Assembly (NCBI GenBank): GCA_963920765.1
Contig: OY987248.1
Location: 1,121,001-1,185,000, forward strand
DNA length: 64,000 nt
Direction of reading: 5' to 3'
DNA from: Ulota crispa
Lineage: Eukaryota > Streptophyta > Bryopsida > Orthotrichales > Orthotrichaceae
Below, piece by piece: positions 7,894 through 56,986 of the stretch; the first letter of the stretch is position 1; each line of letters begins with the position of its first letter. The position numbers were made by a program, and so were the translations under genes. Under the pieces are notes generated by a model, which saw nothing but the letters and a program-made list of their open reading frames with translations, was not told where the DNA came from and did no database searches.

Positions 7894-8028
7894 TTAGCCC
7901 CTAAAGGACCATGGCCTTCATTTTGTCAAAAGACACTCAAAATTGCCACCTGTATAGCAAAGAGTAAAAAAGTTTGAAAATTGGTCATTTTGCATATCTA
8001 ACCATAAGATCTTGTACTAGACTAGTAT

Positions 8029-8038
8029 GAAAATGTGT
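8029..8038 (+). repeat. Left 10-bp target-site duplication of the MULE
   Basis: GAAAATGTGT immediately precedes the left terminal repeat (GGGAGATGCTATTTTG). It is repeated perfectly at 21118-21127. A 9-11-bp duplication is typical of Mutator-like elements. Confidence 0.9.
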
Positions 8039-11000
8039 GGGAGATGCTATTTTGTGAGCCGTGAGCCATGAGCTGAAATTTTTTGGGAATAAATAAAAAG
8101 GGCCTAAGACCATGGGCAAACAAATTAATGAAGTTGTAAAGCCGTGTAGAGAAAGACCTACAACTATGTTTAGAAAGAGGTAAATGCATATTAGGTGACC
8201 ACGATATAAATAATATGACACTTGCTGTACATACAATATCATTCACAGGTAGATTATTTATCATTAACTGGTTAGGGCATTAGAATGAAAAAGCTTGAAC
8301 TCTATTAACTAGCTCTGTTAATTGAATCACCAAGTATTACAAGATTGGTTGGGGCGTATAAGCAAAGGTGAAAGGTTTAGAGCCTTCAACAACTCCAAGC
8401 AAAAATAAGAATATTGTTCTTGCAATTTAGAGAAAAAATGCATGAGGGCTAAAAACCTCAAAGTAAAAGGGTGAGAATGTAGTATCTCACTGTATTGCAA
8501 CAGGGTCCGACAAATCCATCAAAGTAGTGGCAACAATAAAAGAAGGGTGGAAGTGAATGGATAAAGGAAAATGATCAAGGGTGCACGTCCCATATCAGTG
8601 GAGTTAGGAGGTGAAACTATATCTTCACCTATCCCATCACTAGCTGAGATGTCCATGTACAATAAGACATCAGGATCTCCCTTAAACTTCCTAGGCTCAC
8701 TAATAGCACCATCTGTGGCCTCCTCCCACTGAGCTTGAGCTTCTGCATATGAACGTAACAAGAAGGTCGAATTGGAGCTAGAATTGCTAATAGAACTGTC
8801 CAGGCTTGGAGACAAGTGCCCGCCTTCTACATCTGAGCTATAAAAACAAACATTCAATATATCAAATTGATATAAAAAGGCAAAAAAAGCACAGAGTGGC
8901 TTTAATCAAAGAAAAATGCAAACTTACATACAGAATGAGTTATCATCCACAGGAAGAATGATTGCTGTGATGTCCTCAATCTCCTTGTCTTCAATGGTGA
9001 CCATTGAATCAAGATGCGGTTTCTTGGCAGTACTAGGAGCAGCCACAGTTAGTAGAGGTTTCAAAACGTGGCGAAAGACAACCTCATCATTGACTAATGC
9101 CACCAACCGCTTGTCCGCCGCCCTACAAGCCTCAATGGAAGCTCTTGCAAAATCCACAAACAAACACATCTCTGTAATAGTGACAAATATAAACATAAAC
9201 AACCATTACCTAAGCAGCAAAGAGGAGAAAAATTACAAAAGCAGTGTAGATTTAGGATAAGGAACTAACTTGTTGCCGTTGTGCTATTGACAACAATGTC
9301 GCCAGGTTGAGTTGCAGACTTAATCAGCATTTGGAAGAATCAGGCATCCTTCTTCCGCGCCCTTTGCAACGGCTTGCCATTGTGCATCACTTGTGTGTCC
9401 ATTGTCACACAATTGTGTAACATGTTGTCCTTTGCTAGATCAAGTCCAGCATCTTCAAGCTCAAGAACAAACTAGAATTGAAATCCAGTAGGTGAAGGGA
9501 CCTCCAGGTCACGAGCCAAGAGCTTCACAAGATATAGCATGGTCTGCAAAAGGAACACATGAAAAAATAAGCATTCACATAATGCAGATAGAGATGAAAA
9601 TAATACATAGAAGTATGGCCTAAGGTCAAAACCTCACCCAATCGGATAAGTCTTTAGGGTCCATGAGGTGCATTCAATTCACTCTTGTAAATTGTTTGTG
9701 CACTTTGAATTGATAAGTAGTGAGGCAATCTGGAAATAAAGCCATAGACAAGGAATAAGAATGGCAGAGAATCAATGCACCATTGTTGTGCAAGAAATTC
9801 CGAGCAAAATCAAACATTGACTCCAAAAATAACAACTTTTGCACATTCTACAAATGGATAGAGGACGCAAGACAAGATATGCTAGGCACAGCTAACCCCT
9901 TTGGCATATCAGCAATGATCAAATCTATAGCACTGCGCTTGCCAACCACGCCATGAAAAGCCCTTGAGCATTTGCTCATATGTTGTATAGGCAATGTAAA
10001 TGACTTAGACTTGAGCCAAGTAAACAACAGTAGCAAAGAAGGACAAAATGAAGAAGACTTGAGGATATTAGGGCATTATCGCATCAATAAAGGCTTTCAT
10101 ATCAAGAAACTCTGGAGGAAATTGGTTGAACTCATTTTGGTGAGCCTTAAAGGAAGCCAAAGAACCATGAATGACAAACTCTTGCGGCTTTGAAGACGTT
10201 GATCCAATCTCCGGAAAAGCTGGAGTAGGGTGTACATCAAAACTTGCATTTGAATATGTAAGGCTTGAGGCAGGACGCTTGAACTTGCCAATGGACTGAG
10301 AACCAACCAAAGACGAGCCTGGGGAGGTTGGTCCCAGTAGGTTGAACAACTAAGTAGCTGCAATGACCCTAGCGCTCCTCCTTGACCCAAAACCAGATGC
10401 CTGACTACCTTTTCTACCGCCTTATCCGTTGCCTTCTTTGCCTTCAAAGCAGCAGCTGCCTCTCGCTTAGCAATAGCTTTTGCTTCTTTCACCTACCGCG
10501 CACGCGTCTTCTCTACCACCTTCTTCCTTTGAGTAAGTATTTTTGCTATTGTTTAGGGTCCATATGTGCAATACTGGCCACTTCATTGTCAATATCCTTA
10601 TTCTGGCCGGAAGGATGAGTGTCAATAGCATCAAGTGCTGCTTTCAACACAAGCTCCTTAGGGGGACATGTGCTGTAAGCGCACTCAAGGTACTAGTACC
10701 CAGCCTTGAGATGCACTACAGACCAGTTTGTGCACACCTTAGAAACATACATGCAATCTTTGGAAGTAGGGTCTATCCACGTGGAGAAGAACATAGGCAA
10801 TTGCAATTCCAACAAAACACCCTTTGCCACAAGTTCATACTTATAGTACTTGTAAAAATCAAACTCACTATTTAGATGGAATTTTAGAAATCCTATACAT
10901 CATAAGAATCATACCACAGAACTCCAAAATAAATATTAATCAAGCAAACAAACTTGTAAAGCACTTGTTCCACAGCTAAATTTGTGAGGAGTTGGTCCGC

Positions 11001-11681
11001 AAAAGGCTTTGACCTTGAGTAAGCATTCACACCCTTAAAGAATGAAATGGAGCCTATATCCCAAAGCTTCAATTGCCAAGACAAGACATACTCTCCAATG
11101 GTCAAGGGCGGAGGGTTGACTGCATCCTTCAAGACAATTTTGTCCTTCTCCATGACCCCAGAACTCAAATCCATTAAGGAGTCCTCCAGCTGTACAAATA
11201 GAGAAGGTCAAATAAAAGCAAAATGGCCCGAGAAAATAGAAACCTCCACTAAGACAATGCAATATGTAAATACTAAAGAATTATACAAATGTGCGTACTT
11301 AAGAAGAACATCATACCCCTGCATAGAAACACGCCTTATTAAGCCAGCTCTTCAGGTTGAGCTCAGTAACTGGCTTAGCAAAAAATCGATAAGCCTTTTG
11401 AGATTGATCACTAGAATTCCAGCATCTCATCCAATGCAACTTGTGATTCGGCGCGGCATGTACTATTGCCACCAATTGAAGTTTCTCCAGTGTCATCTCA
11501 ATTATTGAGACATTTGTGCTCCACTGCAGAGCAACCTATAATGAAATAAGACCACAAGTAAGGCAACCAGCAAAAAGGTACATACCATGACGATGAGAAT
11601 TGGAGATAAAAAAAGCAAAAACAAATGAATGATACCTACAACAACTAAAAAGAAAAATTAAGTGCCGGCAAAAACCAAGAG

Positions 11682-12241
11682 CCCTTTGGTTGCTGCTGGT
11701 GAGGCTTCGGGCCCAAAGCCCCACCAGCAACAGCCAAAGGGATCGGTGCCGTTGCACAGAGCCTCCAAGTGGCTGCTACAACGGAGGGACCACACGCAGC
11801 GGCGGCAAGCCCCTTGGCTGCTGCTGGTGGGGCTTCGAGCCCAAAGCCTCACCAGCAGCAACCAAGGGGCTCTTCAAAGCAATTCGTTTACAAAATTTCC
11901 ATGCACAATGGACGATTGAGCAAAAGCTTGGTACAAGCCGCAAGCCCCATGGGATGATATGGCAATGTCTTTGGCTCCAAAACCATGACTTTAGATGCCA
12001 AGAGGTTCTACACATACATGGATTGCCCGATGAATGGTTTGCACATTGAAACTTACGCGCGAGCCTCTTGGCACACGTAGCAGAGCCTTCTGACCCAAAG
12101 GCGCTACTGAGTGCGCCAAAGGGCTCACGGACACGTCCTACTACACGCGTGGCAAGAAGGGCCCGCGAGCCCCTTGGCGCACGCAACAGCGCCTTTGGGT
12201 CGTGCCAAGGGGCTCGCGAGCGGGCCCTGCCGCATGCGTGG
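11682..12241. repeat. Cluster of four GC-rich hairpins of about 60 bp inside the MULE
   Basis: Hairpins lie at 11682-11741, 11809-11870, 12061-12126 and 12164-12218; the last extends to 12143-12241. Each has outer arms of the form CCCCTTGG/CCAAGGGG (or CCTTTGG) and a centre with GCCTTTGG/CCAAAGGC-like sequence. They sit between recognisable exons of the - strand gene, apparently in introns. Two related hairpins lie at 18725-18916. Confidence 0.7.
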
Positions 12242-14876
12242 TGTGGCGTGTTTGCAAGCGGCCTTGCTCACGCAAGCGCTCTTTCAGGTCCTATTACGTC
12301 GTGCAAATGTTTGACAGCACAAGCCCAAGGAGTCGCCCTTGATATGCATCACGATAGAGCCTTCTCAAATTTGGAAAGGACTACAACATACAAAATGATT
12401 GACTACATGGACGTGCTTGTGCTCACCTCATCCAAGAAGCCATCCTCTAAAGCAAGATTTGCTACTGCGACATATTTTCCAAATGACCCCTTCAGATTGG
12501 CTTGTTTTGCTGCTGCTGCACTCCACAGGATGATCATTGCTGCTGCCTCTGTCTTCTCCTCAACGGGGGGATCACTCCAGTACTGATGTACTATGTTATT
12601 TGCAGCGTCTGCAATCTCATGCTATAGACCAGGACCAGAGATTGAGTGCCTGCAAATTCAGTAACACAGGGAGTAATTTACTTACAAACCACAAAGCAAA
12701 TTGTAAGTTCATTATGATGATGCACTCACCCAAAATGCAACGCTAATGAAGACGTTAGTCAGGAGTGAATACCATGTCTTCTCCCTATGGGGATTGCCAA
12801 TGCATTTTGAGTATTTTGTTGCAGTCAGGTTGGGCTTCAAGCTTTCCAGAGACTCCATTCCCAAGGATTTTATCCGATGCAAGGTGTTCATCAGGTTGTT
12901 CTTCACAAATGAAGTCTCCACGCCTTTGTTATGGAGAATCACAGTATTGCGTAAGGATGAGAGGCGTTTGCATACCTTATTGGCCAATGTATGGGTTGAA
13001 GAAGTGAACAATAGAACTCTTAAGCTAACTCACCGGTTTACGTCATGCATGACGTTCATCAAGAGGCCTATTTTGCCGCAAGTATCCAAGCAGATGGAGT
13101 CTATCAAACTATGCCACGCAAATTCATTTGAATGTAGCCTTTTGATATAGGCCATCCATGACTTGTGATGGTGGTTTCCATTGCAAATAAAAACATGTAT
13201 TTTGCTAAATATTTCAAGTCTGGTGTGGCAGCTAGAAACTCCTTGAATATGTCACTCTTGGCTGTCCAATGCAGTCCCCAAATCTGTAGGTCCTCAGGTG
13301 TATAATGCCTCTCCCCGCTAGTTTCATTCGTGGTCAAGACATAAAATACGCTGCTCCCAATTCAGTAGCCATGAGCAAAGTAATGCTCCAACTTTGTGAC
13401 ATCCGCTGAGAGTGTAGGGCAAATAAGAGGGAGGGTTATCATTTGGCATAAGGGTATGTTAAATCTAGAAAGCGCCTTTGGCAAGATTCGCATGTCCTCA
13501 ATTGCTTGCACAGAATTCACAAGTTGTTGCTGCCGGAACTCCTCATCTCCAATTTGATCCTCAACTGGCTCTATTTCTTGCTAAGCGGATGAGGTTGCTT
13601 CTTCCGACGGTGCCATACTTGGCACAATCTTGGCCTCGGCCAATGGTAGGTGCTGCTTCATGGTTACGGCAATTCTCTGCAAAACCACATGCCTAGATTT
13701 GTCAGACAAAAGCCTTCACAGAAAGCTGAAGAACCAAACTTTAAAGAGTACACCATAATGAGAAAAATCATTAGGACTTCATCACGTGATGGTCTTGGTT
13801 GTTGCTAAAGCTATCAACCTCAATCTAAACCTAACAGAACCTTTAGAGACAGAATTTGGTTTAGGGTTGCGTTAGGAATCTTTGCAATACATTTATTACT
13901 GTTTGACAAATGCAACATTATAGAAAATAACAGAGAAAGAAATGCTGCAGCTCCTTCATAGCTGCCAGCAAGCCTTAGGTGCTAAAGGTTGTTTTACCAT
14001 TGCCAAGGAGATGTTGACATTGAAATCCTAACCCTATTTCATGATGTAGTAGAATGAAATTCTAGCATTTAAATTCCAATGCCTACTTGTTCTAAACTCA
14101 ATTTGAAGCAGCACAAATTTGGACGTGGGAGTAAAAGCTTGTAGAAATGTTGACAGTAGATATCTGAGGTGGATTGCAGCCTTGATCCAATGTGAAATTT
14201 GTGATGCTTTCTCTCCCCTTTGCAACTTCAAGACCAACTAAATACGATGCACTTGATGACCATGGCCCTTGCACGGCAGCTGACACCACTGTCCCATTGC
14301 AAATTTGGGACAATCAAGGAGTGACGTGAGTGAAATTGCCAACAAGCTAAGAGGTGAGTGTCTTTTGTGGAGCCAAATGACAAAACCAACTTTCAAGCAC
14401 AACACCAACAAACTAATTGCAAAAGCTTAAATCATTGCAATGCTCAATGAAAAGAAGATTACACTTTCATTTTGCACTAAAATCCTAAATGTCTCCGTCA
14501 CTCAAACCATTGTGTAGCAGCAGCAGCGAGTGACTATGAAGGGCCGAGGCGCTGAAAGATATTGAAACCTAGTAAGGCCAATGCTTGACGGCAAGCGCAT
14601 CCAAGGTTATTTAGTAGGCGCAGGTGGTGAGCATAAACAAGCGTGGCATGCGAGCACAAAGTCGTGATGCCCACGTGCTGGCAAAGCAAAACTAGAGCGT
14701 GTGCAAGTGGCGAGTACAAGGAAAAAAACCATGCGAAGGCGAGAGGGTTGTGGCGAAGGAGAAGATGCACCTGCAGTAGTACGCAACATGCACCAGCAGC
14801 AGGCAGCGAGAGAGGCTCCTGAAGCAATTGCTAGGCTACGGCAATGACTAGGCTACGGCAGGTCGGTGTGAGAGGG

Positions 14877-14893
14877 AAAACCCTAAACCCTAA
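14877..14893 (+). promoter_or_regulatory. Plant telo-box-like motif
   Basis: AAAACCCTAAACCCTAAC contains two units of the plant telomere-type repeat. It lies in the long first intron of the - strand MULE gene, about 1 kb downstream of its start. Such boxes are common near plant promoters. A short interstitial telomere patch is the alternative. Confidence 0.4.
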
Positions 14894-15931
14894 CTTTCTC
14901 CAACTTTCTAGGGCGGTGCTAGAGGGAGTAGAATGAGGAGGACGTGGCCGCCGCATGGACCTGGGCGGTGAAGGGAGTTGGGCGGCACGCAAATCTCAGT
15001 GGTGCAAAGACCTTGCAAGCGTAGAGATGTAGGCAGTGGCAACGACTGGCAAGGGCAAGGTCACCTAAACACTTGGTGGTCACCCACCATCGATTCAAAA
15101 GACGGAGGAGCACTAAATCTTAGGCTCGTCCAACTTCATCACCGAGAATAGGAGTCAACCGCAATGGTAGGACAGAGGCAATGTCTAAAATAGCTGCTCT
15201 AGTAGACAATTGAACTTCAATTATTGTTTAGCTTTGTTCCATCATATCTTGTTTGAATCTACAACTTCAACCTGTTTGAGAGTTGGTTAGTGTTGGAGCA
15301 CATTTGATAACGCCCTACAATAAGAAGTTCATGTACAATATTGTGGAGGACTACTTTGAATATTTTGTAATGAATATTATCAATAGTATTGGAAATGAGT
15401 GATTGCAGAGATTACAATAATCCAAAAAGTTGTAGCTTTCACTTAGCTAATGTGCTACTTTGTCAAAGGGTTATGGTTATATGATAAATGCAAACCTACA
15501 TAGTCAAAGCGGAGCTACTCATTTGCTGCTATTATGCAGTATGGACGCAACCAATACTAACAAAGTAGTCCTACTATAACTTCTCACCGTAGAAATGATC
15601 AACACAATTAGAGTCAATGATGTCCACTTACCAAACAAGCAGAGCTACCCTTGTTATCACCAGCGTTTGGCAGCTTTAAAGGACTACTGCGTACAACTTG
15701 GATCTCAGCAATCTCAGTCACTTGCCGCAACCTCCGGCGTATATAGTGCTTGTCCTGCGGGTCACCATTGTTGTCTTCCTCTTGAACTTCAAACAATATA
15801 GTATGCAGTGATTGTTCATCAACTCTTGCACTTGCGGAACTAAACTCTCGGTGTAATTTAGCCCTTTGAATGCCTTTAGCACTAGTAAAAAGCAGCCTGG
15901 ATTTCCGCTTTGGTTTCCTCTCTCCTGTCAT

Positions 15932-16427
15932 GATTAGCAAATAGTTTGTCTGAATGCGCGTAGAGGGTGCTGTTCAAGTATTGGACTTGTTTGGAGGCGG
16001 GCTGACGTATTTAAGAACTCCAAGTGGTGAACTACGGCAAGGTCTGGTGATCGCTATTGATATTTTAAAAGTACAATAAGTATGTCTGCACCTTTATGAG
16101 AGTTAGTAATCTGCTGTTGCTGTTGTTATAAATGGATGGTAGTGTCCATGTGGCAGCTCTGAGAATACCCACATCTACTTTGACGTCAACATGTCAGCTT
16201 TGCTTTGCTATTTCCAACGTTTGTCAGAAGCCGCCATTGTCATTTTCATAACTTCCAAATCCTAAACTGCTATTCTGATTCCAGGCTCAAAGCCTTGTCA
16301 AAAACCCTTAACATTGAACCATCGCCAAATATTTTTGGAAGTGGACCTCAAACAGCTTCCTTATTGATGGTGTCTATTGTTGTGCTTGCCACTTACCTCT
16401 TACTCAGAGGAGAACATCTTATTTTGA
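15932..16427. promoter_or_regulatory. Divergent spacer between the two MULE genes
   Basis: The - strand gene appears to start at 15931 (or 15940) and the first sizeable + strand transposase frame begins near 16428. About 500 bp therefore separates two genes read outward and must hold both promoters. I cannot assign a TATA box or start site with confidence. Confidence 0.4.
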
Positions 16428-19400
16428 TTGTTGATTAGCCTGTATACTTCATTTGCGGCTATTCTTGCAAGTTTTGTTGTCATTGTAATGGGCAACCTCC
16501 TTCTTCTTCATCAGGCTTTGACCATGGCGCTTGTTTATCACCACCCTTCTGATGTTCCTATTCTTTTTCTTGCCAAAAATGGATGCTTTGTAGTCATCTC
16601 GGCATGTAGATTATCTCTCTGTTTTTCTTTGACGTTAGAATCCATGCACATAGATGAAGAGGTCCATGATGCTGCGACTGGGGCACTACTTTACTTTGTT
16701 GGCCAACTGCCAGATGCTAGCACTAGAGTGAAATAGTGGTCTCTTCCCCCTAGACGGTATAGAGTGTCTGGTGTTGGTGCAACTGTCATAGATGTTCCTA
16801 TTGCTATTGTTCCGACCTCTACTCCGACGGTTGCAAGCACGGACACAATAGTGCTCTTTGCCATTAAAATTGAGCCTGGTCTAGAAGACGTTCATATTCT
16901 GAGTAACGAATTAGATGGCAACTCTCTTGTGATTGTGCATACCCCCATTGAAACGTCTCAAAGCTCATTGCCGGATGGGCTAGTTAGATCAGAGAATTAC
17001 AGATTTGATAGTGACCCCCCTTCACTACCTCTCCTCACTCTTAGCATTGTTGATTTGCTTAAGCATACTCTAGCCTCAAAAGGCTCACGTAGTGTCTTTA
17101 AGAATTTAGATTATAGTGTCATCCTGATTGTGAAGGTGGAATTTCTCCTTGCCACTTTCAACAGGGATGTCATATTTGAGCTTCCACCTTTACTTGACAC
17201 ACCTTCACAATCATCTGCTCGTAGAATGCACAAAATGGATAAATATCATGATGGTCACGCTTGGACAAAGACAATTACTTCTAACATCTGTAACATCCTT
17301 GGCTTGAATTTTTGAACGTCTATTTGAGTTGGCCATTTGCGCTGTTCTTATCGAGCCTGTCCATATTTAGATCATGTCCATCAATCGTAAGATGTAAACG
17401 AGACGGAGTGGAAAGGTTCTACAGAGCTGCTTTTTTCAGTGGGTGGTGTCACACTATCTGGATCTACAGTAATTTGCAAAATGTGCAAGTCTATCCCTGT
17501 TTACGTGGCAGCTTGCAACGCCCGAGTATACTATGTTTTTGTTAGACAGCAACAGAGTCAAACTTGTGTTCACCTAGGAACGCATAGCCATGTTGTAAAA
17601 GAGGGTATTCAGTGTGATAGGGCAGCTCAAACATCATCTTTGCTTTGGCAACAAGTAGAGAAAACCCCCTTTGCAAAAACTTCTTCAATTGTGCTGGAAG
17701 CTACAAAGGAGTTATTTGGCGAGATCCTTTTGCGGGTTGATGGGGAGGAGGCCAACGCATTTAACATCAAGGAACTTTGGCCAATTCTAAAGAAGTGTAG
17801 GTCAATGTCTTCTCTCAATGTTAGAAATGAAGTTGCTTCATTTTGTGATTTGCACTAATATGGTATTATGGATAGTATCACAAAGTTACGGGGTTTAAGC
17901 CGTTAGGCTTTTGTTCAAGACAATTTATTTCTTGGTCAAATGATAGACAAGGTAAAAGTATTTGTATTCAAAATGTCAGAGGTTGGGCTCAAAAGTGGAG
18001 TGGACTTGGTTCGCCGCATGCAGCACAGTGGAGATTTTCAAGACGCTTGGATGATGTTTGATCACGTTAAACGCGTGAAGGAGTGGACAACAATGGCGTG
18101 CCATGTGTACAACTTGGTGTATTGTTGAGTAATGACCATTGCAGTTTGCAACATGCAATCTGAAGATGCTATTGCGCGAATGGTGTTATGGAAGAACTTG
18201 AATGCCGTTTGTGAACGGAATGGAGTGAGTGCTCCTAATTTCAAGTGCTTCATGGCAGATAGCGCTCAAGCAAACTGGAATGTTCTTTGTTGAGTGTAAG
18301 GAAGTGGTGATGTCTTTGTACCTATGGTGGATTGGGAACGCACTTATTTGTTTCACAAGGCACAATCATTAGAAAAACATACCAAAGCTGACATTTGTGC
18401 TGACTTGCAACATCAACACAAACAATTGTGTAAGCAATATAAGAATTTGTCATCCATACCTGAAGCAGAGACTAGATATCTTGCTATCCGTGCGTGGTGG
18501 CATTCTTCAAGTGCTGCAAACTCACTGTCGTTACCTTGTTTGGAGTTGTGGTTAGCGTTTTGGCATTTCCAATATTGCCGGTGGGGTGGCTTTATGGATT
18601 TGGTAAATTACTTCTAAATTCCAGTATTTTATCATGTATTGCTGCAATTTGTACCGTCTATGACTAGGGGGTTCATTTTCTAGCAGCAAAAATGAAGAGT
18701 ATGCGCAGTTTCAAGTAATGGCCAATCCCCTTGGAGCTGTCGAGGTAGCCTTTGGATCCAAAGTCTATCTTTTTGGCTACAAGGGGATGATGAAAACACA
18801 GAACTTTGTGTTCAAATTTCAGAATTTGTCGATCTCCTTGGAGCTCCGGGTAGAGCCTTGGAGCTCCGAGTAGAGCCTTCGGTTCAGAAGGTCATGTTCC
18901 CGGCTCCAAGGGGATAGCAACTTTCATGTCAGGACCATTTTCTCATCTCTACTTCGCACGCAGCAATGTCAAGTAAGTTAATTCTGTAGGTGTTCATGGG
19001 CTACTGGTTAATATACAATGAAATATGAGGTTTGTTACACCCAATCATTTGGACCACCCCTTTCATCCTATCATGTGATTGTATTCTTCTACCTGTGCAG
19101 TAATTGAACAAGGCTGAGTTGGCTGAAATGCCAGCGTACAATTTGGCGGAATCAATTCACAGCAAGTGGCAGCATCAGTCAGGGGACCGCGGAGAGGATT
19201 TATACACGGCCACCATAGATGACTTCATACGCGCATTCATGCAAGTAGTGCAGTATCACAGGTTTGTTTCTTCATGGAAGTAATGGAGGTTGTGGCCCTG
19301 ACAAGGCAAAGTTGAAAATGCAAGTTGCCAGAAGTTTTGCAATTTGTACAGGCAATCCATCTAAGCTCACTGTTGTTGTGGATCTTATACCTGATGCCCA

Positions 19401-20559
19401 GCAATTTTGCACAAAGAACCTACATCTTGAAAGATAGGTGGTTTTTGGTTCTCTTAAATGGAAGGCAAATATACCCTTGGGATTAGAGTTGGACTCCCAA
19501 CGACCTAACAAGGTTAACTTCTCTCATCTTTGTTTTAGAATGAAAAGAACACCCAGCCCAAGTGGTGTGGGATCTCTTAGCACTGTTCATGAGGGATTTC
19601 TAGTTCCTTTTGAACCAACAGATGTGGAAGACTCTTTGGTAGACACTGTTCAAGGTGAACCCATCATGCCCCACGTCACAAGAGTTTTGAAGACTGATTG
19701 CGACGTGAGAGAGTGGCATATTTCCAGATTGCCAAGCAATTCTGTAAAGTGTTGCTTTGCTCAGCAAGCTCATACAAAGAAGAAATGTACAGCAAAAATT
19801 GTGCAGAGCAGTTTGAGTACGGCAGCGCCAACGTATACAGGTGGGATGACCAATTACAAGAAAGACAAAGTGGAAATCACTCAGTTCTTCTTTTGCAATG
19901 ATGGTATTCATTGCTGCGTGAAGGGTACAAAACGTAAGTGGGTTGTTTCCCGCCCAAACCTTCCAATCATTTGGCCAATGAAGAGCATGACCAATTTGAA
20001 CTATAGGAAAATTTTGGCATTGGAGCATGCCGGTTTTCAATTGCCCCAATAGACAAAAATTTCTCCTTGCGGCCTATTTGGAAAGAGTTCCAGTGCATTT
20101 GATATGTTGTTGTATCTAGCACCTATTTTACCTGATGACTATCCAAAGACTAGGTCAGGTAAATCTATCAGGCAAAGTCTCCAAGGCCCAACAACCAAGC
20201 AATGCAACAACTGCGCATCTGCTAAATTTATGAAAGGTGGAATTCAGAAAGTCACACTTATTTTGCAACCTAGATTTGGCTGCATCATATCTCTGGATTC
20301 ATAGTCCAAGAACAAGGTTGAGCAGTACATGCTCACTATTAGTTCATTCCCTAAATGTTCATGCCCTTACTTTAAGGAAATGCTTAGTGGGGCACTCAAA
20401 AAACGTAGGCAATGGGCGCATTGCAAGCATCTGTACTACATAGTCACAGTAGTCTGTGGATTAGATGTAGATCGTGATCATTTTATACATGCTTCTTCAT
20501 TTAGTTTTTCAAAAATCAAGCACCTTCTTATGATTCCAGCTCTACGTATAGGTATTTGA
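16428..20559 (+). pseudogene. Decayed MULE transposase with SWIM zinc finger
   Basis: This is the transposase gene of the MULE. Conserved segments appear in the order expected: a Cys/His-rich N-terminal part with CVHLGTHSH (about 17560-17590); VDLVRRMQ...DAWMMFDHVKR (about 18010-18070); VCNMQSED (about 18145-18170, where related proteins would have an Asp); CFMADSAQANW (about 18248-18280, a DDE-type Asp block); WERTYLFH (18333-18356); and WGGFMDL (about 18583-18603). An exon at 19101-19265 and a long frame at 19438-20052 follow. The C-terminus (20329-20559) has a SWIM finger, CxC at 20356-20364 and CxH at 20422-20430. An intron of about 500 bp is likely at about 18604-19100. At least eight in-frame stops break the reading. 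Family assignment rests on these motifs plus the 10-bp target duplication. Confidence 0.75.
18725..18916. repeat. Two further MULE hairpins related to 11682-12241
   Basis: The hairpin at 18725-18788 has arms ATCCCCTTG/CAAGGGGAT and the centre CTTTGGATCCAAAG. The one at about 18832-18916 has arms CTCCTTGGAG/CTCCAAGGGG and a centre near CCTTCGGTTCAGAAGG, with an internal duplication of its left arm. Both lie in the predicted transposase intron. Confidence 0.6.
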
Positions 20560-21117
20560 GTTAGTGCCTATTTTGGTATACTTTTCACTACTAGAGCCCA
20601 ACCTTTTTTGTTGGTGCAGCTTGGCTCACATTTATAAATTATACAGATTTCCTAGAAAATGTTCCCCGTTTTTGCATGATGTGATTCATTCTTTATTACT
20701 ATGAACATGTTCTTCTAGCTTCTCTACTATATGATATATAATTACTTTATGTTGGAGACTGAATGTTTGTATATTTCTTCTTTGACCTCCAATAGATAAA
20801 TTGAATGCACTAAACCCATAATTAATATTTTCATATATTTAAATGGTCATAGGCCTTTGAAATAAACTTTGAGTTTATATTTGCAAAAATGAAATTGGTC
20901 TTAGATCCTTCAATATCCACGGCAATAGGATGTCCCCCGGTTATAGAAATGTTGAATATGTTCGCCTGGAAATTGAAAACAAAAATGAAAATAAATACAA
21001 AGTTTGATATATTTTCCTATATTTCACAAAATTGTAATCAAAAAAAATAATTCTACTCAAAAATCCCTTCTCTACGCTCATGGCTCACCATTTTACGCTT
21101 GCAAAACAGCTTATCCC

Positions 21118-21127
21118 GAAAATGTGT
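21118..21127 (+). repeat. Right 10-bp target-site duplication of the MULE
   Basis: GAAAATGTGT follows the right terminus (…GCTTATCCC) and is identical to 8029-8038. The family-E sequence resumes directly after it. Confidence 0.9.
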
Positions 21128-22114
21128 CATACAAAACTTAAGAACTTGGACGTCATAGACTGGAAGATATTTGCATTCAAAGTGTAAAAAACAAGGTTTT
21201 TGCACCTTGCCTAACTAGATTTTTTGACTTTGAACTTTTTTAACTTAAAATTTTTGCACCACCGCGTTTGGAATTCTATTATTGTGTGGTGGGAAGTTGA
21301 GTTGGGAATCTTGGGAAAAAACTTAAAACAAAAAATCATTAATTTTTGTTCTTTGAAACAAACATTAGGTAGAGAAGGTATGAGATTGAACAAAAACTTA
21401 AATTGCTAGTAACCTTGCAATGGAACTAAAACGCAATAATCCCAATGGTGAGATTGTTCTAGAAAGAAAAATTCACACTCTCCAGCAATTTTTTCTGAAT
21501 AAATGTTATACTTGCATTCAAAAATGAAGTTTATAAGTTAATTTTTCAAGAAGATGCTTGAGGTGCCCGAAAAACAACATTGTCCATAACTTTCTCATAA
21601 CTAGTCCAAATGGAATGAATCAAAGCTTCAGATGTAGACAAAGATATAATCTATGAGAAAAAAAATTAAATTTTTTTTTCAAGTTTTTATAAGAACTTTT
21701 TTTGCTGCCCCTAGTACCCAAATTTGTGCTTATTTGGTCATAACTTTTGCTCCTTGACATCAATTGGAATAAAAATTAGATTCTCCAAAAGCTAATGTGT
21801 TTTTCTATCTTCAAAAAAAGTCTCAAAAAATTAAAACAAAAATTGAGGCTGTAGGTACCTGCCCAAAATCCCATTTATCCCCATAGGGACAATGGTCTTT
21901 TAGCGGTTAGGTGTAGGACTTGAGCACATCAAAAGTGAAGATGTTTCAATCAAAATTTCAACTTTTGTAGGTAAAAAAATTGTATGCATTGATTGCAATG
22001 GGTATAAAAGATTTTTTTTTTGTTTTATTTTGTGTCCCATAGGCCGCAAGAATAGATGAGAAGGAATGAAGGAGGAATTTAACAAATGCTAAAAATTTAC
22101 AAACTTGGCGTCAC

Positions 22115-22842
22115 TTAATCCCTAAAGGACCAAAGTCCCCTCAGGGGACTTTCAGGATTTTGGGCATGTACTTATGGCTAAACTACTTTGTGTAATTTTT
22201 TGAAACTTTTATGGAAGATGGGGGATTCAAAGATCTGTATGGGCATCTAAATTTTTTCCTCATTTTGACATTTATTGAAGAAGTTAAAATTGAATTTATG
22301 AGAATTTTTGTTTGGCAAGCAGCCCAAAAATTTCTTTAAAATTTGCATATTTTAAAAATAAAAATTTGAGGTTAGTTCTTTAGACTTATGTATATGTGGG
22401 AAGTTTTTAATTATTCAATTCTAATTGATTAGATGAAAGTTATGAGAAGTTTTAGTTTGCTAGTAGGTGTGGAGAATCTCAAAACAATGCATACATGCAA
22501 ACTAAAACTTCTCATAACTTTCATCTCATCAATTAGAATTGAATGATTCAAAGCTTCCCACATATACGTTAGTCTAAAGAACTAACCACAAATTTTATTT
22601 TAAAAAAATGCAATTTTTAAAAAAGTTTTTGGGTTGCCAGCCAAACTAAGATTCTCATAAATCCAATTTTTAACTTCTTCAATAAATGTTGAAATGAGGA
22701 AAAAATTAAATGCCCATACAAATTTTTGAATTCCCCATTTCCCATAAAAGTTTCAAAAAATCACGCAAAGTAGTTTAGCCATAAGTACGTGCCCGAAATC
22801 CCATTTGTCCCCGAAAAGGGGGCTTGGTCCTTTAGGGGTTAA
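22115..22842. mobile_element. TTAA-flanked palindromic MITE, family G copy 1 (728 bp)
   Basis: Left TTAATCCCTAAAGGACCAA and right TTGGTCCTTTAGGGGTTAA. The whole left half (to about 22470) is an imperfect inverted copy of the right half (from about 22488), leaving a loop of roughly 20-30 bases. Copy 2 at 37308-38035 has exactly the same length. A transcript through it would fold into one long hairpin. Confidence 0.9.
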
Positions 22843-26342: not shown

Positions 26343-26990
26343 AATTTTGGAATCTTTTGAGGATCTTTTGGAAATTTTTTGTGAATCTTTAAGAATCTTC
26401 AAGAATGTTTTGGGAATCATTGAGAATCTTTTCAAGATTTTTAAGAATATTTAAGAATCTTTTTGAGATTTTAGAATCTTTGAGAATCTTTTAGGAATCT
26501 TTGTGAATCTTTGGAAATCTTTCGGAATCTTTTCAAGTTTTTTTGGAATCTTTGAAAATGTCTGAGAACAATTGAGAATCTTTGAGAATCTTTGAGAATC
26601 TTTTAGGAATCTTTGAGAATCATTTGGAATCTTTGGGAATCTTTTCAAATATTTTGGAATCTTTGAGAATGTTTTAGAACAATTGAGAATCTTTGAGAAT
26701 CTTTGAGAATCTTTTAGGAATCTTTGAGAATCTTTTAGGAAGATTTGAGAATTCTTGAGAATCTTTGAGAACAGTTTGAAATTTTTGAGAATCTTTGGAA
26801 ATGTTCTAGGAATTTTGAATTTTTTTGAGAATTTTTGAAAATCTTTAAGAATAATCTTGGAATATTCTTGGAAGCTTTGAGAAGCTTTGAGAATCTTTTT
26901 TGAAATTCAAAAAATCTTTGAAAATCTCTGAGAATTTTCAAGAACCTTTTTGGAATCTTTAAGAATGTTTTTAAAATCTTTATGAAATTT
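26343..26990. repeat. Degenerate tandem repeat based on GAATCTTTGA
   Basis: The motif GAATCTTTGAGAATCTTTT and variants (GGAATCTTT, GAGAATC) recur many dozens of times with a period near 10-13 bases. Decay increases outward, and weaker units continue to about 27150. The frames on the - strand (KDSQRFSKI-type repeats) are translations of this satellite, not genes. Confidence 0.85.
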
Positions 26991-32424: not shown

Positions 32425-33360
32425 TTAACCCCTAAAGGACCATGGCCTTTATTTTGTCAAAAGACACTCAAAACTACCACATCTATGGCAAAGAGTAAAA
32501 AAGTTTGAAAATCAAGCATTTTGCATATCTGACCGTAGGAATGTAGGATCTTGTGCTAGACTACTATAAGAATGTGTCATACAAAACTCAAGAACTTGGA
32601 CGTCACAGACTAGAAGATATTTGCATTCAAAGTGTAAAAAACAAGGTTTTTGCACCTTGCCTAACTAGATTTTTTGACTTTGAACTTTTTTAACTTAAAA
32701 TTTTTGCACCACCGCGTTTGGAATTCTATTATTGTGTGGTGGGAAGTTGAGTTGGGAATCTTGGGAAAAAACTTAAAACAAAAAATCATTAATTTTTGTT
32801 CTTTGAAACAAACATTTGGTAGAAGAAGGTATGAGATTGAACAAAAACTTAAATTGCTAGTAACCTTGCAATGGAATTGAAACGCAATAATCCCAATGGT
32901 GAGATTGTTCTAGAAAGAAAAATTCACACTCTCCAGCAATTTTTTCTGAATAAATGTTATACTTGCATTCAAAAATGAAGTTTATAAGTTAATTTTTCAA
33001 GAAGATGCTTGAGGTGCCCGAAAAACAACATTGTCCATAACTTTCTCATAACTAGTCCAAATGGAATGAATCAAAGCTTCAGATGTAAACAACGATATAA
33101 TCTATGAGAAAAAAAATTAAATTTTTTTTTCAAGTTTTTATAAGAACTTTTTTTGCTGCCCCTAGTACCCAAATTTGTGCTTATTTGGTCATAACTTTTG
33201 CTCCTTGACATCAATTGGAATAAAAATTAGATTCTCCAAAAACTAATGTGTTTTTCTATTTTCAAAAAAGTCTCAAAAAATTAGAACAAAAATTGAGGTC
33301 ATAGGTACCTGCCCGAAATCCCATTTATCCCCATAGGGACAATGGTCCATTAGGGGTTAA
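32425..33360 (+). mobile_element. TTAA-flanked MITE, family E copy 2, uninterrupted (936 bp)
   Basis: TTAACCCCTAAAGGACCATG at the left and TAGGGGTTAA at the right. It is colinear with the split copy 7894-8038 plus 21128-21910 and thus serves as the empty-site reference for the MULE. It carries the TAGGATCTTG...CTAGACTA motif and the ATCCCCATAGGGA hairpin just inside the right end. Confidence 0.9.
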
Positions 33361-33757
33361 AGTAGACAACGGTCCTTGGGATCATTGGTCCCAGCAACAC
33401 CATTCATCCAAGAAGATTGCAAGACAGCACACCGGTCATGGGATAATAAATGGTTTGCATGAGACCCACGGGTATGGGAAGGGGTTTGTTGGAGCTCCAG
33501 TCCAAAGTCCGTCATGCAAACCAAATGGCAAGAAACAAAAACCCCATTTGAACCTCGGCCCTTGCCGGACCTTGGGAACTGTTCAGTCTTTGAGAACGTT
33601 TCATTCGTTCGGGAACTAGTGTCACAGAACCGTTTGAAGCAACCGGCAACGGTACCGCACTATGGGTAACTCATTCGTCCATGAGTTGGAGCGGCAAACC
33701 GAGCCCCCCATTAGCCCTTCTAACAGCTACCCTTCGCTTTGAATTTCAAATTGTTAA

Positions 33758-35090
33758 GGGCATCCCCAATGCAGCCGTAATAGATGCAGGCAGGCAAAAG
33801 TTTGTGCAGTGGTTTAACTCGTAAAGGACCAGACCTCATATTTTTAGAAACATAGCAATTTTGGGCAGGTACCTGTGATTGGAGCTTTTCATGTTTTAGG
33901 TTAAAATTTTAATAAAATGTGGGGATGAGGTTTATCTTTCATATGCACTAAATCTCATGATTATAAGTAAAAAATTATGGCATAATATGTTGTTTTTTAC
34001 GTTCGTCGGGCAGCTTGGTCAGATTTTTTAAAATCACCTTTTTCAAAATCAAATTTTTTAAATTGGTTTAGGAGATTTATGTGAATGTAGGAAGCTTCAC
34101 ATCATTCCGTTTGGATCAACAAGATGAAACTTATGAGGATTATTAGTTTGCGGGCAGTTATGGATTCTCTACTCCAAAATAAGCTTTGAAGTTCTTTATT
34201 TTACTCAATTTTCATTATTTTGGAAATTAAACAAAACCAAAGGATGAATATTGTTTATGACAACATTATGACCATTGGGATTGGCATTTATCATTTCCAT
34301 AATTAAATTCATAACAATTTTGTGTTTTGAATCATTCTCTACTTCTTTTTACTTACTAATTTTTTTCCATATGTTATAATACTCCAAATGATTTGAAACT
34401 TTTTTGACATGTACTTTACTTAGGTGGAATAAGGATTTTAGAGAAGCACCACCCACATGGCCTTTTTTCCTTAGGAATTTCACCTTCTAAAGGGTAGCTG
34501 CCCGGTTTTTCACAAGACGTTTTTGAATATTCAAACCATTCTAACTTCCAATCCACGTGGTGGAAAACTTTGAATTTTTTTCCACATCTTCTAAAACCAT
34601 AATTTTACAAGATCCTACGATCACATATGCATAAAACTATTTTTGTTTTCAAATTTGGTTGATGCTCTAAAAATGGCAGTTTTGAAGAGTTTTTGGTGAA
34701 AACTTTACTTGATCCTTTAGGGGTTAAACAGGACTTGAGCAAAAACATGGGCTCCAATGCAATAGGTAAACCATACTGCATTTATCAGGGCTCCCTACAT
34801 AAGAGCCCCTCCCCTACAAATTTTCACTATTTGGAGAGTCTTGCATACCACTCTAGCTCTGACATTGACGCAATTTCAGAGAATTTCAGATACTTTTGAC
34901 ATGAATCAGCCACACATAAGCACTTAAAAAAGACATAAACTATTAAAAACTCATGTTTAGTGAGTGTCAGAGCTTGTGTGCATTGGGGCTACTACACTGG
35001 GGAAATGCCCCTACTTTGCATCTGATGCAGAATGACACACGGTCTGACAGAGTTTTGCCTGCCTCTATTACGGCTGCATTGGAGATGCCC
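33758..35090. mobile_element. PIF/Harbinger-type MITE interrupted by a family-I element
   Basis: Left GGGCATCCCCAATGCAGCCG; the inverse of the right end is GGGCATCTCCAATGCAGCCG. Pairing extends about 40 bp into GGCAGGCAAAA. TAA lies on both sides (33755-33757 and 35091-35093). Subtracting the insertion 33814-34727 leaves about 420 bp. Confidence 0.85.
33814..34727. mobile_element. TTAA-flanked MITE, family I copy 1 (914 bp)
   Basis: The left end TTAACTCGTAAAGGACCAG carries substitutions relative to the consensus; the right is GATCCTTTAGGGGTTAA. It is 98-99% identical by eye to copy 2 at 42668-43582. It shares GGGCAGGTACCTG and the TTTACAAGATCCTACGATC motif with other families. Confidence 0.9.
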
Positions 35091-37285: not shown

Positions 37286-37307
37286 TGGAAGGTTGAGTTT
37301 TTATATC

Positions 37308-38035
37308 TTAACCCCTAAAGGACCAAGTGTCTCCTCAGGGAACAATTGGGATTTTGGGCATGTACCTATGGTTAAATTACTTTGTGTGATTTTTTGAAAC
37401 TTTTATAGAAGATGGGGAATTCAAAGATTTGTGTGGGCATCTAATGTTTTCCTCGTTCCGATATTTATTGAAGAAGTTAAACATGAAATTATGAGAATTT
37501 TTGTTTGGAGGGCAGCCCAAAAACTTCTTTAAAAATTGAATATTTTTTAAATAAAAATTTGAGGTCGATTCTTTAGACTTACGTATATGTGGGAAGCTTT
37601 GAATCATTCAATTCTAATCAACAAGATGAAAGTTAGGAGAAGTTTTAGTTTGCAAGTAGGTGTGGAAAATCTCAAAACTATGCCTACATGCAAACTAAAA
37701 CTTCTCATAACTTTTATCTCATCAATTAGAAATGAATGGTTCAAAGCTTCCCACATATACGTAAGTGTAAAGAACTAACCTTAAATTTTCTATTTTAAAA
37801 AAATGCAATTTTGAAAGAAGTTTTTGGGTTGCCTGCCAAACAAAAATTCTCATAAATTCATTTTTAACTTCTTCAATAAACATCAAAATGAGGAAAATCT
37901 TAGATGCCCACACATATCTTTGAATTCCCCATCTTCCGTAAAAGCTTCAAAAATTACATAAAGTAGTTTAGCCATAAGTACGTGCCTAAAATCCCATTTG
38001 TCTTCCATAGGGACAAGTGGTCCTTTAGGGGTTAA
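37308..38035. mobile_element. TTAA-flanked palindromic MITE, family G copy 2 (728 bp)
   Basis: Left TTAACCCCTAAAGGACCAAG and right TGGTCCTTTAGGGGTTAA. It is a near-complete palindrome with a loop near 37660-37690, colinear with and equal in length to copy 1 at 22115-22842. Confidence 0.9.
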
Positions 38036-42575: not shown

Positions 42576-42667
42576 AACTTTTTTGGAACGTGTGAACTAG
42601 TAATGTGATAAACCTTGAGATTTTTTTGAACATCTTAATAATTTTGAAAGCATGTGGAGTGAATTAG

Positions 42668-43582
42668 TTCACCCCTAAAGGACCAGGCCCCCTATTTTTA
42701 GAAACATAGCAATTTTGGGCAGGTACCTGTGATTGGAGCTTTTCATGTTTTAGGTTAAAATTTTAATAAAATGTGGGGACGAGGTTTATCTTTCATATGC
42801 ACTAAATCTCATGATTATAAGTAAAAAATTATGGCATAATATGTTGTTTTTTTACGTTTGTCGGGCAGCTTGGGCAGATTTTTTAAAATCACCTTTTTCA
42901 AAATCAAATTTTTTAAATTGGTTTAGGAGATTTATGTGAATGTAGGAAGCTTCACATCATTCCGTTTGGATCAACAAGATGAAACTTATGAGGATTATTA
43001 GTTTGCGGGCAGTTATGGATTCTCTACTCCAAAATAAGCTTTGAAGTTCTTTATTTTACTCAATTTTCATTATTTTGGAAATTAAACAAAACCAAAGGAT
43101 GAATATTGTTTATGACAACATTATGACCATTGGGATTGGCATTTATCATTTCCATAATTAAATTCATAACAATTTTGTGTTTTGAATCATTCTCTACTTC
43201 TTTTTACTTACTAATTTTTTTCCATATGTTATAATACTCCAAATGATTTGAAACTTTTTTGACATGTACTTTACTTAGGTGGAATAAGGATTTTAGAGAA
43301 GCACCACCCACATGGCCTTTTTTCCTTAGGAATTTCACCTTCTAAAGGGTAGCTGCCCGGTTTTTCACAAGACGTTTTTGAATATTCAAACCATTCTAAC
43401 TTCCAATCCACGTGGTGGAAAACTTTGAATTTTTTTCCACATCTTCTAAAACCATAATTTTACAAGATCCTACGATCACATATGCATAAAACTATTTTTG
43501 TTTTCAAATTTGGTTGATGCTCTAAAAATGGCAGTTTTGAAGAGTTTTTGGTGAAAACTTTACTTGATCCTTTAGGGGTTAA
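42668..43582. mobile_element. TTAA-type MITE, family I copy 2 (915 bp)
   Basis: Nearly identical to 33814-34727. The left flank reads TTCA-CCCCTAAAGGACCAG where TTAA is expected, probably a later point change. The right flank is TTAA. Confidence 0.9.
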
Positions 43583-44151
43583 AATTACGTTTGGAAATTG
43601 GGACCACTTGAGGTGGGCAGCGGAGAAGGGAATGTGGTAAAGGTGAAGGGGGCGGGGGATGGTGTCAACCGTGTGTGATTTTAGAACAGAATCTCATAAC
43701 ATTGTTAACCTTCAGTAGGGGTACCCTTTTGCTCTTCACAATATGAGGACCCCCAACAAATGGCATGAGCTAGCTCTCGCCCTCACCAATCGGTTCTCAA
43801 GATCTTTAACTGAACTCTCCCTTAGGTATCAGGGGAGAATATCCTCCCATTAGCTGGGGGAGGAACACAGCCGGTTAACAATGTTATGCTCTCCGTTATC
43901 CGCAATCGGACCAACTACCGAGGAAAAGAAAGGATGTGCATGACCACATGGTGACCTGTCAGGTGAGGTGTGGCCGCCGGCAGGGCCTCCACCATCAACC
44001 CCCACCCTGAGTATCCATTCCTATGACCGTGCTGCTCCTTCCCGAGAGGTTGCATGCTTGGGGCCTGCGGGTGCTGTCCCCCACCCTATGTGAGGGAAAA
44101 CTTTTCCTACGATGCTTTGTGTTCTAGAAGGATTTCCCGTAGCAATAAAAT
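43583..44151. other. GC-richer island with an 18-bp inverted repeat
   Basis: This stretch is clearly richer in G+C than its neighbours (for example GGGGGCGGGGGATGG). CATAACATTGTTAACC near 43691 is repeated in inverse (GGTTAACAATGTTATG) near 43874, bounding about 200 bp. No coding frame of note or known RNA gene was recognised. Confidence 0.45.
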
Positions 44152-47082: not shown

Positions 47083-47346
47083 GGGGCTGGAAAATGTTAT
47101 TTCATGAGTGGGAATTTGTGAGTCACGAGCAGCAAGCTGAGATTTTTGTCAAAATAATAAATTTCACCTATAATTGTCTACACAAGGCCCTATAATCATG
47201 CATTTAAACTATCATCTCTTAAGAAACATGATGTCATTTTTGTTATTTCATTAATTTTGAGTTAAGAATTTGTTCTTGTTCATAGAATCTTGAATCCCTG
47301 CTCATGGTTCATCATTTTACGCTCATCAAATAGCGTAGTCTGCTCC
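47083..47346. mobile_element. Short deletion derivative related to the 13-kb MULE (264 bp)
   Basis: The right part, CTCATGGTTCATCATTTTAC followed by GCTCATCAAATAGC, matches the right terminus of the MULE. The left part has TTTGTGAGTCACGAGC like its left terminus. Both arms pair as inverted repeats (GGGGCTG…TTATTTCATGAG against GGAGCAG…CTATTTGATGAG). No coding DNA remains. The target duplication is not clear. Confidence 0.6.
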
Positions 47347-55799: not shown

Positions 55800-56345
55800 T
55801 TAACCCCTAAAGAACTGAATGTCCTTTCAAGGGACAAATGGGATTTCAGGCATGTACCTATGTCTAAACTACTTTGTGTAATTTTTTGAAACTTTTATGG
55901 AAGATGGGGAGTTCAAAGATATGTGTGGGCATCTAATTTTTTCTTCATTCCGACATTTTTTGAAGAAGTAGATATGGCTCCATATCTATCACTAAACTTA
56001 AAATTCTCATATCTTTCATCTCATTTATTGTAAATGAGTGATTCAAAGCTTCCCATGTATACGTAAACTTAGAAAACCAATTTCAGATTTTTATTTTAAA
56101 AAAATGGAAACTTTAAAAAAGTTTTTGGGCTGCCTGGACCGCCCAACCTCCCCAAAATTTCAGAAATTCATTTTTTACTTCTTCAAAAATGTAAAAATGA
56201 AGGAAAAATTAGATGCCCACACAGATCTTTGAACTCCCCATCTTCCATAAAAGTTTCAAAAGATTACACAAAGTAGTTTAGCCATAGGTACATGCCTGAA
56301 ATCCCATTTGTCCCCTAAACAGACATTCAGTTCTTTAGGGGTTAA
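55800..56345. mobile_element. TTAA-flanked MITE, family G copy 3, shortened (546 bp)
   Basis: Left TTAACCCCTAAAGAACTGAA and right TTCAGTTCTTTAGGGGTTAA are perfect inverses over 20 bp. The TGTCCTTTCAAGGGACA hairpin follows. Compared with the 728-bp copies it lacks most of the inner left arm. Confidence 0.85.
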
Positions 56346-56369
56346 TGTAGCAGCACTGTATATTTATAT

Positions 56370-56798
56370 ACTAGGGGTAGTCACGGCACTTCTTTGTGCT
56401 CACGTGGAGAATGAGAACGCAGTGGTGTCCCGCAGCTGGTGGTAGCTAGAGCTTTGGTTATGATTAACGAGTGAAACTTCTCAGCGTCCCATTCTTCTCC
56501 AAAGGTGAAGAATGAAGTGGAGAATGAGGTAGTGTGTGAACTTCTTACCATGGTCTACTTGTTTTCCCTGCTAGTGAATCACTTTTCACGCTAGCTATTT
56601 ATGCTCCTCCAATCGCTAACTGTGCTACCTTTATCTAAGTAAACCATTCTTCATTCTCCATTCTCATTCTCCAAAACACACAAAATAGGATATCACAACA
56701 TCTTCATGAAGAATAAGCTCCTATTGACTCCTCTTCTCTCTTTACAACTACTCAATCTCCATTCTCTGAGAAGCCGTGAAGCCGTGACTACCCGTAGT
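56370..56798. mobile_element. Inverted-repeat MITE (429 bp)
   Basis: ACTAGGGGTAGTCACGGC at the left; the inverse of the right end is ACTACGGGTAGTCACGGC. The interior repeats GAGAATGAG/CTCATTCTCC-type words. The target duplication is not certain. Confidence 0.7.
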
Positions 56799-56986
56799 GT
56801 AATATGTCAAGAAATTAGTGCGGGCCAACCTAAACGCAACATTCAGTATAGTGTTTTGGACAGGTAATTTTTGCTCAATTGGTCATATAACTCCTAGATT
56901 TTTAAACAGGTAGATTTTAGGACTGGATACCAAAAAAGTTGCACTTTACTTGAGGTATATGACGTATAACCGGCAATTTTTTTTTG

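Follow-up and report, generated by a model that had tools for sequence, protein, structure and literature searches.

A decayed, probably Mutator-type transposon of the moss Ulota crispa with a divergent gene of apparent DNA amino-methyltransferase descent

RESULTS

Layout of the element

A stretch of 64,000 nucleotides from the moss Ulota crispa (assembly GCA_963920765.1, contig OY987248.1, positions 1,121,001 to 1,185,000 of the forward strand), hereafter referred to as the window, contains a decayed transposon of 13,079 bp at positions 8039 to 21117, counted from the first base of the window. The element carries two genes which begin back to back and run outward: a transposase gene on the plus strand and, on the minus strand, a gene that extends from 15.93 kb down to approximately 8.5 kb and whose C-terminal part resembles DNA amino-methyltransferases. 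The intergenic region between them (15932 to 16427) is, judging from this layout, likely to be a shared promoter region. The copy is dead, since its catalytic and S-adenosylmethionine (AdoMet)-binding motifs have changed and both genes are broken by stops.

Insertion site and termini

The element is bordered exactly by a perfect 10-bp duplication, GAAAATGTGT, located at 8029 to 8038 on the left and in identical form at 21118 to 21127 on the right. Its ends form imperfect terminal inverted repeats (TIRs), placed by local alignment to each other at 8039 to 8083 (plus strand) and 21059 to 21117 (minus strand). Their alignment score of 40 was equalled by 1 of 2,000 random 60-bp pairs drawn from the window. 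Both the duplication and the inverted ends had been claimed in an earlier note on this DNA, and both claims were borne out. The insertion event is best proven by its target, because an element-free paralogous copy of that target exists within the window (32425 to 33359, plus strand). In this copy, a repeat of about 0.93 kb, the insert is absent and the junction 10-mer lies at 32568 to 32577. The left flank of the element (7894 to 8038) was 83% identical to 32425 to 32577, and the right flank (21121 to 21909) was 97.5% identical to 32571 to 33359. Both matches join at the duplicated 10-mer, which reads AAGAATGTGT in the empty site and GAAAATGTGT at the element. The target of insertion was a repeat of approximately 0.93 kb with the ends TTTAACCCCTAA and TAGGGGTTAAA. 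Given the duplication, the inverted ends at the exact borders and the empty site, the element is a TIR (cut-and-paste) DNA transposon.

The two flanks are unequal relative to the same empty-site copy, as if the right one had been converted or exchanged. Repeats with common sequence and related ends (TTAACCCCTAA or TTAATCCCTAA plus complement) were found at 7894 to 8038 together with 21118 to 21909, at 32425 to 33363, at 22114 to 22842 and at 37307 to 38035; the transposon is nested inside one member of this group, and the repeat at 22114 to 22842 is 85% self-complementary. When the element ends were used to search the window for other copies, a single 29/40 match at 47341 exceeded the threshold of 27, the element itself aside. 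GC content was 0.40 to 0.46 in six of the seven 2-kb blocks over the element and 0.26 to 0.38 in blocks outside both the element and the region from 56 to 62 kb. Loss of CpG was considered as a special mark of the element and rejected: the observed-to-expected ratio was 0.47 in the element, 0.46 and 0.36 in its flanks and 0.88 in a gene-like region.

Structure and decay of the minus-strand gene

The first exon of the minus-strand gene (MTGERKPKRKSR...) spans 15632 to 15931, comprises 100 stop-free codons and is followed by the donor GTAAGTG at 15631. A region which the earlier note had called ParB-like, read by eye from the string GNHHHKSW, lies at 13034 to 13661 and contains two in-frame stops and a frameshift. 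Further exons were assigned to 12427 to 13029, with the donors GTGAGT/GTGAGC at 12729 and 12426, and approximately to 10530 to 11535, where the frames are poor in stops and match no family. The segment corresponding to methyltransferase motifs IV and V, with IDLIIADMPKG and FARNFLHNNGALILCHS, occupies 9638 to 9983 and aligned with three methyltransferase profiles over their motif IV/V part. It is separated by an intron (9544 to 9637; donor GTGAGG, acceptor TTTTGCAG) from the motif X/I segment, FFQMLIKSATQPGDIVVNSTTAT, at 9271 to 9543, which aligned to positions 183 to 209 of the 253 in a phage-family profile and to the corresponding stretch of a YhdJ profile. The segment SIEACRAADKRLVALVND..., at 8928 to 9171, represents the end of the methyltransferase fold.

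Both genes of the element look spliced, which points to a eukaryote. Of the 15 donor-like matches listed for the minus-strand gene, four (15631, 12729, 12426 and 9637) were accepted as real because each ends an open frame. The peptides listed in the earlier note were located on the minus strand in the order it had given: IDLIIADMPKG (D of DMPK at 9910), DFARNFLHNNGALILCHS (frame 9847 to 9674), PGDIVVNS (approximately 9306) and RLVALVND (within 9205 to 8924). The length of open frames is no proof of coding, as 8 of 200 simulations held a stop-free stretch as long as the longest one in the element.

Ten in-frame stops were counted over the 13 inferred segments of the gene, even when the frame with the fewest stops was chosen for each. 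At the catalytic (D/N/S)PP(Y/F/W) position stands DMPK, and the FxGxG-like AdoMet-binding motif I has been lost, with NSTTAT in its place. With neither a catalytic tetrad nor an AdoMet loop left, this copy encodes no enzyme.

GC-rich hairpin modules are present in an intron of this gene at 11677 to 11874 (-152 kcal/mol) and 12092 to 12201 (-88 kcal/mol), and a related module lies in an intron of the transposase gene at 18725 to 18915 (-91 kcal/mol). Such modules might represent nested foldback elements or might give rise to hairpin RNA.

Methyltransferase ancestry of the minus-strand gene

A query of 242 residues was joined by hand from the gene, with X at stops, and compared by tblastn with 50,697 phage records. 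Three records were matched. The best was a 'putative DNA methylase' of Sinorhizobium phage HMSP1-Susan, which covered 86% of the query at an expect value (E) of 0.1; the remaining two were virion structural proteins at E 8 to 9. The matched place in HMSP1-Susan itself fits PF01555 (E 3.6e-29), and in the alignment the phage ADLPYG corresponds to ADMPKG of the window and the phage IKTYTNPGEIVLDNTAGSGTT to IKSATQPGDIVVNSTTAT. Among 72,556 plasmids the same query matched one record, a site-specific DNA-methyltransferase, at E 0.9.

Four profiles were built and used: one of the phage family (80 IMG/VR loci plus the seed, 253 positions), one seeded with Escherichia coli YhdJ, one combining these two and one of a phage family of ParB-methyltransferases. 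The YhdJ-seeded profile was assembled independently of any likeness to the query; of its 50 loci, 1 gave no match, and sequences longer than 420 residues were excluded. The joined query was then ranked among 5,000 residue shuffles of itself. With the phage-family profile it scored above all 5,000 in two runs (2,633 and 2,650 sequences were reported, the others giving no match). It ranked 2 of 5,001 with the YhdJ-seeded profile, or 3 of 5,001 with new shuffles, and first against 5,000 shuffles with the combined profile. A variant join, in which the segment at 8928 to 9171 follows motif I directly, scored higher in all four profiles and ranked first, second, first and 16th. Single open reading frames (ORFs) at 10075 to 9851 and 9847 to 9677 were the top two of the 1,583 six-frame ORFs of the window with the phage-family profile.

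As a hand-made join may make a result look better than it is, the window was also scanned without joining. The phage-family and YhdJ profiles were halved (motifs IV-V and motifs X-I), and all six frames were searched for ordered pairs of matches 250 to 1,200 bases apart. The locus was first of 131 pairs with the phage-family half-models, at 12.8 bits (5.6 for a pair sharing the same second half and 2.7 for the next separate place), and first of 216 pairs with those of YhdJ (11.5 bits; the next pair, 6.7). As a control, 200 windows matched in local composition were simulated; none reached the phage-family score, 4 reached the YhdJ score and none reached both. For the third, ParB-methyltransferase family, the motif IV place was the best match of the N-terminal half (1 of 616). 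The order IV, V, X, I on one strand was found with the phage-family and YhdJ profiles and, at X/I, not with the third.

Taken together, the sequence comparisons indicate that the C-terminal part of the gene is very probably homologous to the beta class (N6_N4) of DNA amino-methyltransferases. The methyltransferase origin proposed in the earlier note is therefore supported by tblastn, shuffle ranks and window scans. The route that it had suggested, a match to the PF01555 or ParB profiles, was negative in Pfam, where PF01555 gave no match to the gene at E up to 10 with HMMER filters on; the methyltransferase signal is weak and came from tblastn and from our own profiles with filters off. Library matches were weak and unrelated; examples are an ABC transporter (E 0.13) and, in the case of the ParB-like region, Vsr (E 0.072). 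A pattern-based search, which reaches close relatives only, found no relative of the methyltransferase part in IMG/VR and none of that part and the preceding exons in GTDB contigs.

The ParB-like region

The ParB profile was built from 79 of 80 phage ParB-methyltransferase loci plus the seed and represents one phage ParB family only. With its half-model, the best match within the minus-strand gene ranked 58 of 441 in the window. The ParB_N domain was present in none of 45 records, which were 45 of the 130 viral loci. By tblastn, the region matched one unannotated phage record at E 8 and, with a shorter query, nothing in plasmids. The profiles tried did not support the ParB-like label, which rests on the GNHHHKSW string. 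We regard ParB as not shown rather than disproved, because the region is decayed and frameshifted, the relationship would be distant and one phage family was tried. In the window as a whole, the ParB half-model matched best on the plus strand at 15885 to 15909 (7.1 and 9.2 bits), opposite the first exon of the minus-strand gene, and these matches were taken as chance.

Transposase gene and superfamily assignment

The plus-strand gene is decayed and divided into several exons, which were delimited by ORFs and by motifs read by eye at 16428 to 20559 (approximately 16.4 to 20.6 kb, the start being approximate). It contains an N-terminal zinc-finger-like region (CKMCK...CVHLGTHSH; 17391 to 17858) that was recognized by eye and matched no zinc-finger profile. 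The DDE region at 17907 to 18602, also read by eye, has its first D in MMFDHVKR and its second in FMADSAQANW, and this stretch holds three in-frame stops. The third acidic residue falls in the block PAYNLAESIHSKW at 19104 to 19283. We take the arrangement of these D/D/E blocks to be that of Mutator-like elements (MULEs), a likeness judged by eye. A pattern scan located a SWIM-type zinc finger, CSC-x19-CKH, at 20356 to 20430.

The earlier note had described a DDE block, a SWIM finger and a Mutator-like element. The CxC-x19-CxH pattern is indeed present and the D/D/E residues can be read by eye, but the pattern occurs three times across the six frames of the window and no SWIM profile matched it. 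Similarly, the Mutator-like assignment agrees with the duplication, the inverted ends and the motifs, although MULE profiles failed to recognize the decayed transposase. By tblastn, the transposase matched one hypothetical protein among plasmids (E 2). A pattern-based search, again reaching close relatives only, found none for two transposase pieces in IMG/VR and none for one piece in GTDB contigs. The target duplication of 10 bp is inside the range of 8 to 11 bp of MULEs. Because of this duplication, the inverted ends and the hand-read motifs, the carrier is probably a MULE, which is the best filing, if an unproven one.

Surroundings of the element

Elsewhere in the window, a direct repeat of 937 bp with 98% identity lies at 33797 to 34728 and 42647 to 43583, 8.9 kb apart; the spacing is like that of long terminal repeats, and no TG...CA ends were seen. 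A degenerate minisatellite with units of about 10 and 20 bp and the sequence AATCTTT occupies 26345 to 26986. The region from 56000 to 62000 is GC rich and not depleted of CpG (observed-to-expected ratio of 0.88), in contrast to the other stretches of the window that were measured, which are CpG poor, and contains an ORF (59219 to 60268) that matches alpha/beta hydrolase families and appears to resemble a land-plant protein.

DISCUSSION

Accessory genes combining a ParB-like part with an N4/N6-methyltransferase have been published in giant algal transposons, namely, Sola1-1_Ec32 of Ectocarpus and its green and red algal relatives, and the accessory protein has been proposed to bind and modify the transposon's own DNA (PMC12477816). 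We favor, as the probable explanation of the locus, a dead and probably Mutator-type transposon with a divergent accessory gene of bacterial or phage beta-class N6_N4 methyltransferase descent which falls into this algal class. The element moved by cut-and-paste. Its accessory gene, presumably transcribed divergently from the transposase gene, probably derived its C-terminal part from a bacterial or phage beta-class methyltransferase and would belong to the class that, in algal transposons, joins a DNA-binding part to a methyltransferase acting on N4 of cytosine or N6 of adenine. The protein of intact relatives would bind the DNA of the element and deposit N6-methyladenine (6mA) or N4-methylcytosine (4mC) there; we regard such self-methylation as fairly probable. 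Its purpose would most likely be either escape from silencing, which VANC achieves in a different manner, or the setting of transposase access to the ends, two uses which are not separable here, and evasion of silencing as the main use is possible, though doubtful. The broader proposal, of a land-plant Mutator-type lineage that keeps a bacterial-type DNA amino-methyltransferase as a standing second gene and once wrote, or in intact relatives may still write, 6mA or 4mC on its own DNA, is plausible but tentative.

Several results weigh against the explanation that we favor. ParB was not detected, the region scoring no better than shuffles with the phage ParB-methyltransferase profile (rank 2,859 of the 3,379 reported). 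The motif X-I half of that family misses the locus in the window scan, and the whole-family profile ranks the joined query only 30 of 5,001, or 16 with the variant join. The window-wide YhdJ test by itself reaches only about 2%, the single ORFs at 10075 to 9851 and 9847 to 9677 do not lead with either the YhdJ or the combined profile, and the phage family was selected since one of its members matched the query. Neither individual pieces nor hand-joined exons had a methyltransferase, MULE or ParB match in Pfam, PHROGs, NCBIfam or PDB sequences, and the decayed plus-strand gene had no MULE, FLYWCH, SWIM or other transposase match in Pfam. Single-sequence AlphaFold models of two contiguous pieces were unusable, with mean predicted local distance difference test scores of 36 and 42. 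Finally, one copy of the element was examined, so conservation of the methyltransferase cargo is unproven.

The minus-strand gene might alternatively be a one-off fragment of a host gene, captured by transduplication in the manner of Pack-MULEs and having no standing part in the element. Capture of host genes is common in MULEs (PMC13317346), and a single decayed copy is what we have; however, the gene starts with a first exon of its own, shows splice-like signals across approximately 7 kb, is arranged head to head with the transposase gene and reaches near the left end, and its opposite-strand layout is as in the published algal accessory gene (PMC12477816). We consider such a capture unlikely. 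A somewhat smaller chance is given to a TIR transposon from outside the MULE superfamily that picked up a methyltransferase gene as an accessory, as happened to Sola1 in Ectocarpus, which would agree with the lack of a MULE, FLYWCH or SWIM profile match to the decayed transposase but not with the 10-bp duplication, the C-terminal CxC...CxH finger and the D/D/E blocks, whose MULE style was judged by eye. One published carrier described in detail is Sola1 (PMC12477816), whereas duplications of 8 to 11 bp are tabulated for MULEs (PMC6446971).

It is improbable that the methyltransferase likeness arose by chance and that the gene is an unrelated second gene of a MULE, for instance of the antisense PMD type. 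The missing library match, the 4 of 200 simulated windows that reach the YhdJ-based score and the third methyltransferase family without a motif X/I match here all speak in favor of this reading. Nevertheless, two methyltransferase families converge on one place with the correct motif order, a combination seen in none of the 200 simulations, and in two collections, phage and plasmid, the joined query found methyltransferases as its top matches.

Compared with Sola1-1_Ec32, the transposon of U. crispa likewise has its accessory gene inside the element, on the strand opposite to the transposase, and with an amino-methyltransferase part. The carrier there is a Sola1 element of 21.5 kb in a brown alga, whereas here it is apparently a MULE of 13 kb in a land plant; in addition, the ParB part is not demonstrable here and this copy is dead (PMC12477816). 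VANDAL elements with VANC are also plant MULEs whose second gene acts on the DNA methylation state of the element, but VANC is an anti-silencing protein that causes loss of methylation and is not described as a methyltransferase in the excerpts concerned (PMC5735166, PMC13317346). MuDR-type MULEs with antisense PMD and Phytophthora MULEs with SET also have a duplication of 8 to 11 bp, a SWIM finger and an additional gene that is often antisense; the second genes reported differ, being PMD, SET, an ovarian tumour gene, MutB and unknowns (PMC6446971).

DIRS1-like elements are, similarly, eukaryotic transposons that encode a methyltransferase of unknown role, but they are retrotransposons with a tyrosine recombinase and carry the methyltransferase domain in pol (PMC3266345). 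Virus-borne DNA transposons with a methyltransferase gene are alike in cargo, although theirs are of the Methyltransf_26 and C5-cytosine types and are accompanied by an endonuclease. Eukaryotic DNA N4-cytosine methyltransferases are known from bdelloid rotifers (N4CMT, a captured bacterial PF01555 enzyme; PMC8885841) and from Marchantia (MpDN4MT1a/b; PMC8566409), but these are host genes and are not described as transposon cargo in the available parts of the two reports. Fungal transposons encode TET/JBP dioxygenases (PMC12730594).

The earlier note knew of no described plant MULE with such a cargo. No MULE with a DNA methyltransferase was noticed among the literature matches listed, as judged from titles and the openings of abstracts, and the word methyltransferase is absent from the main text of a MULE survey (PMC6446971), each of which is weak evidence of absence; the kind of accessory gene, however, has already been published for algal transposons (PMC12477816). 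By this analogy, the gene looks like a further example of the published algal kind and not a new kind of thing. What is new here is possibly the combination of a MULE carrier with a land-plant host.

Even as a relic, the element suggests that the algal-type accessory gene is not bound to one transposase superfamily. If the gene is a standing part of a land-plant MULE, the self-methylating accessory class of algae would cross transposase superfamilies and reach land plants. Intact relatives, if they exist, would make it possible to test cleanly whether a transposon can place a non-host mark (6mA or 4mC) on its own DNA, either to evade silencing or to control its movement, in hosts whose transposons are silenced by 5-methylcytosine. 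Such relatives might also, speculatively, be a candidate source of eukaryotic N4/N6 DNA methyltransferases such as the Marchantia sperm enzymes.

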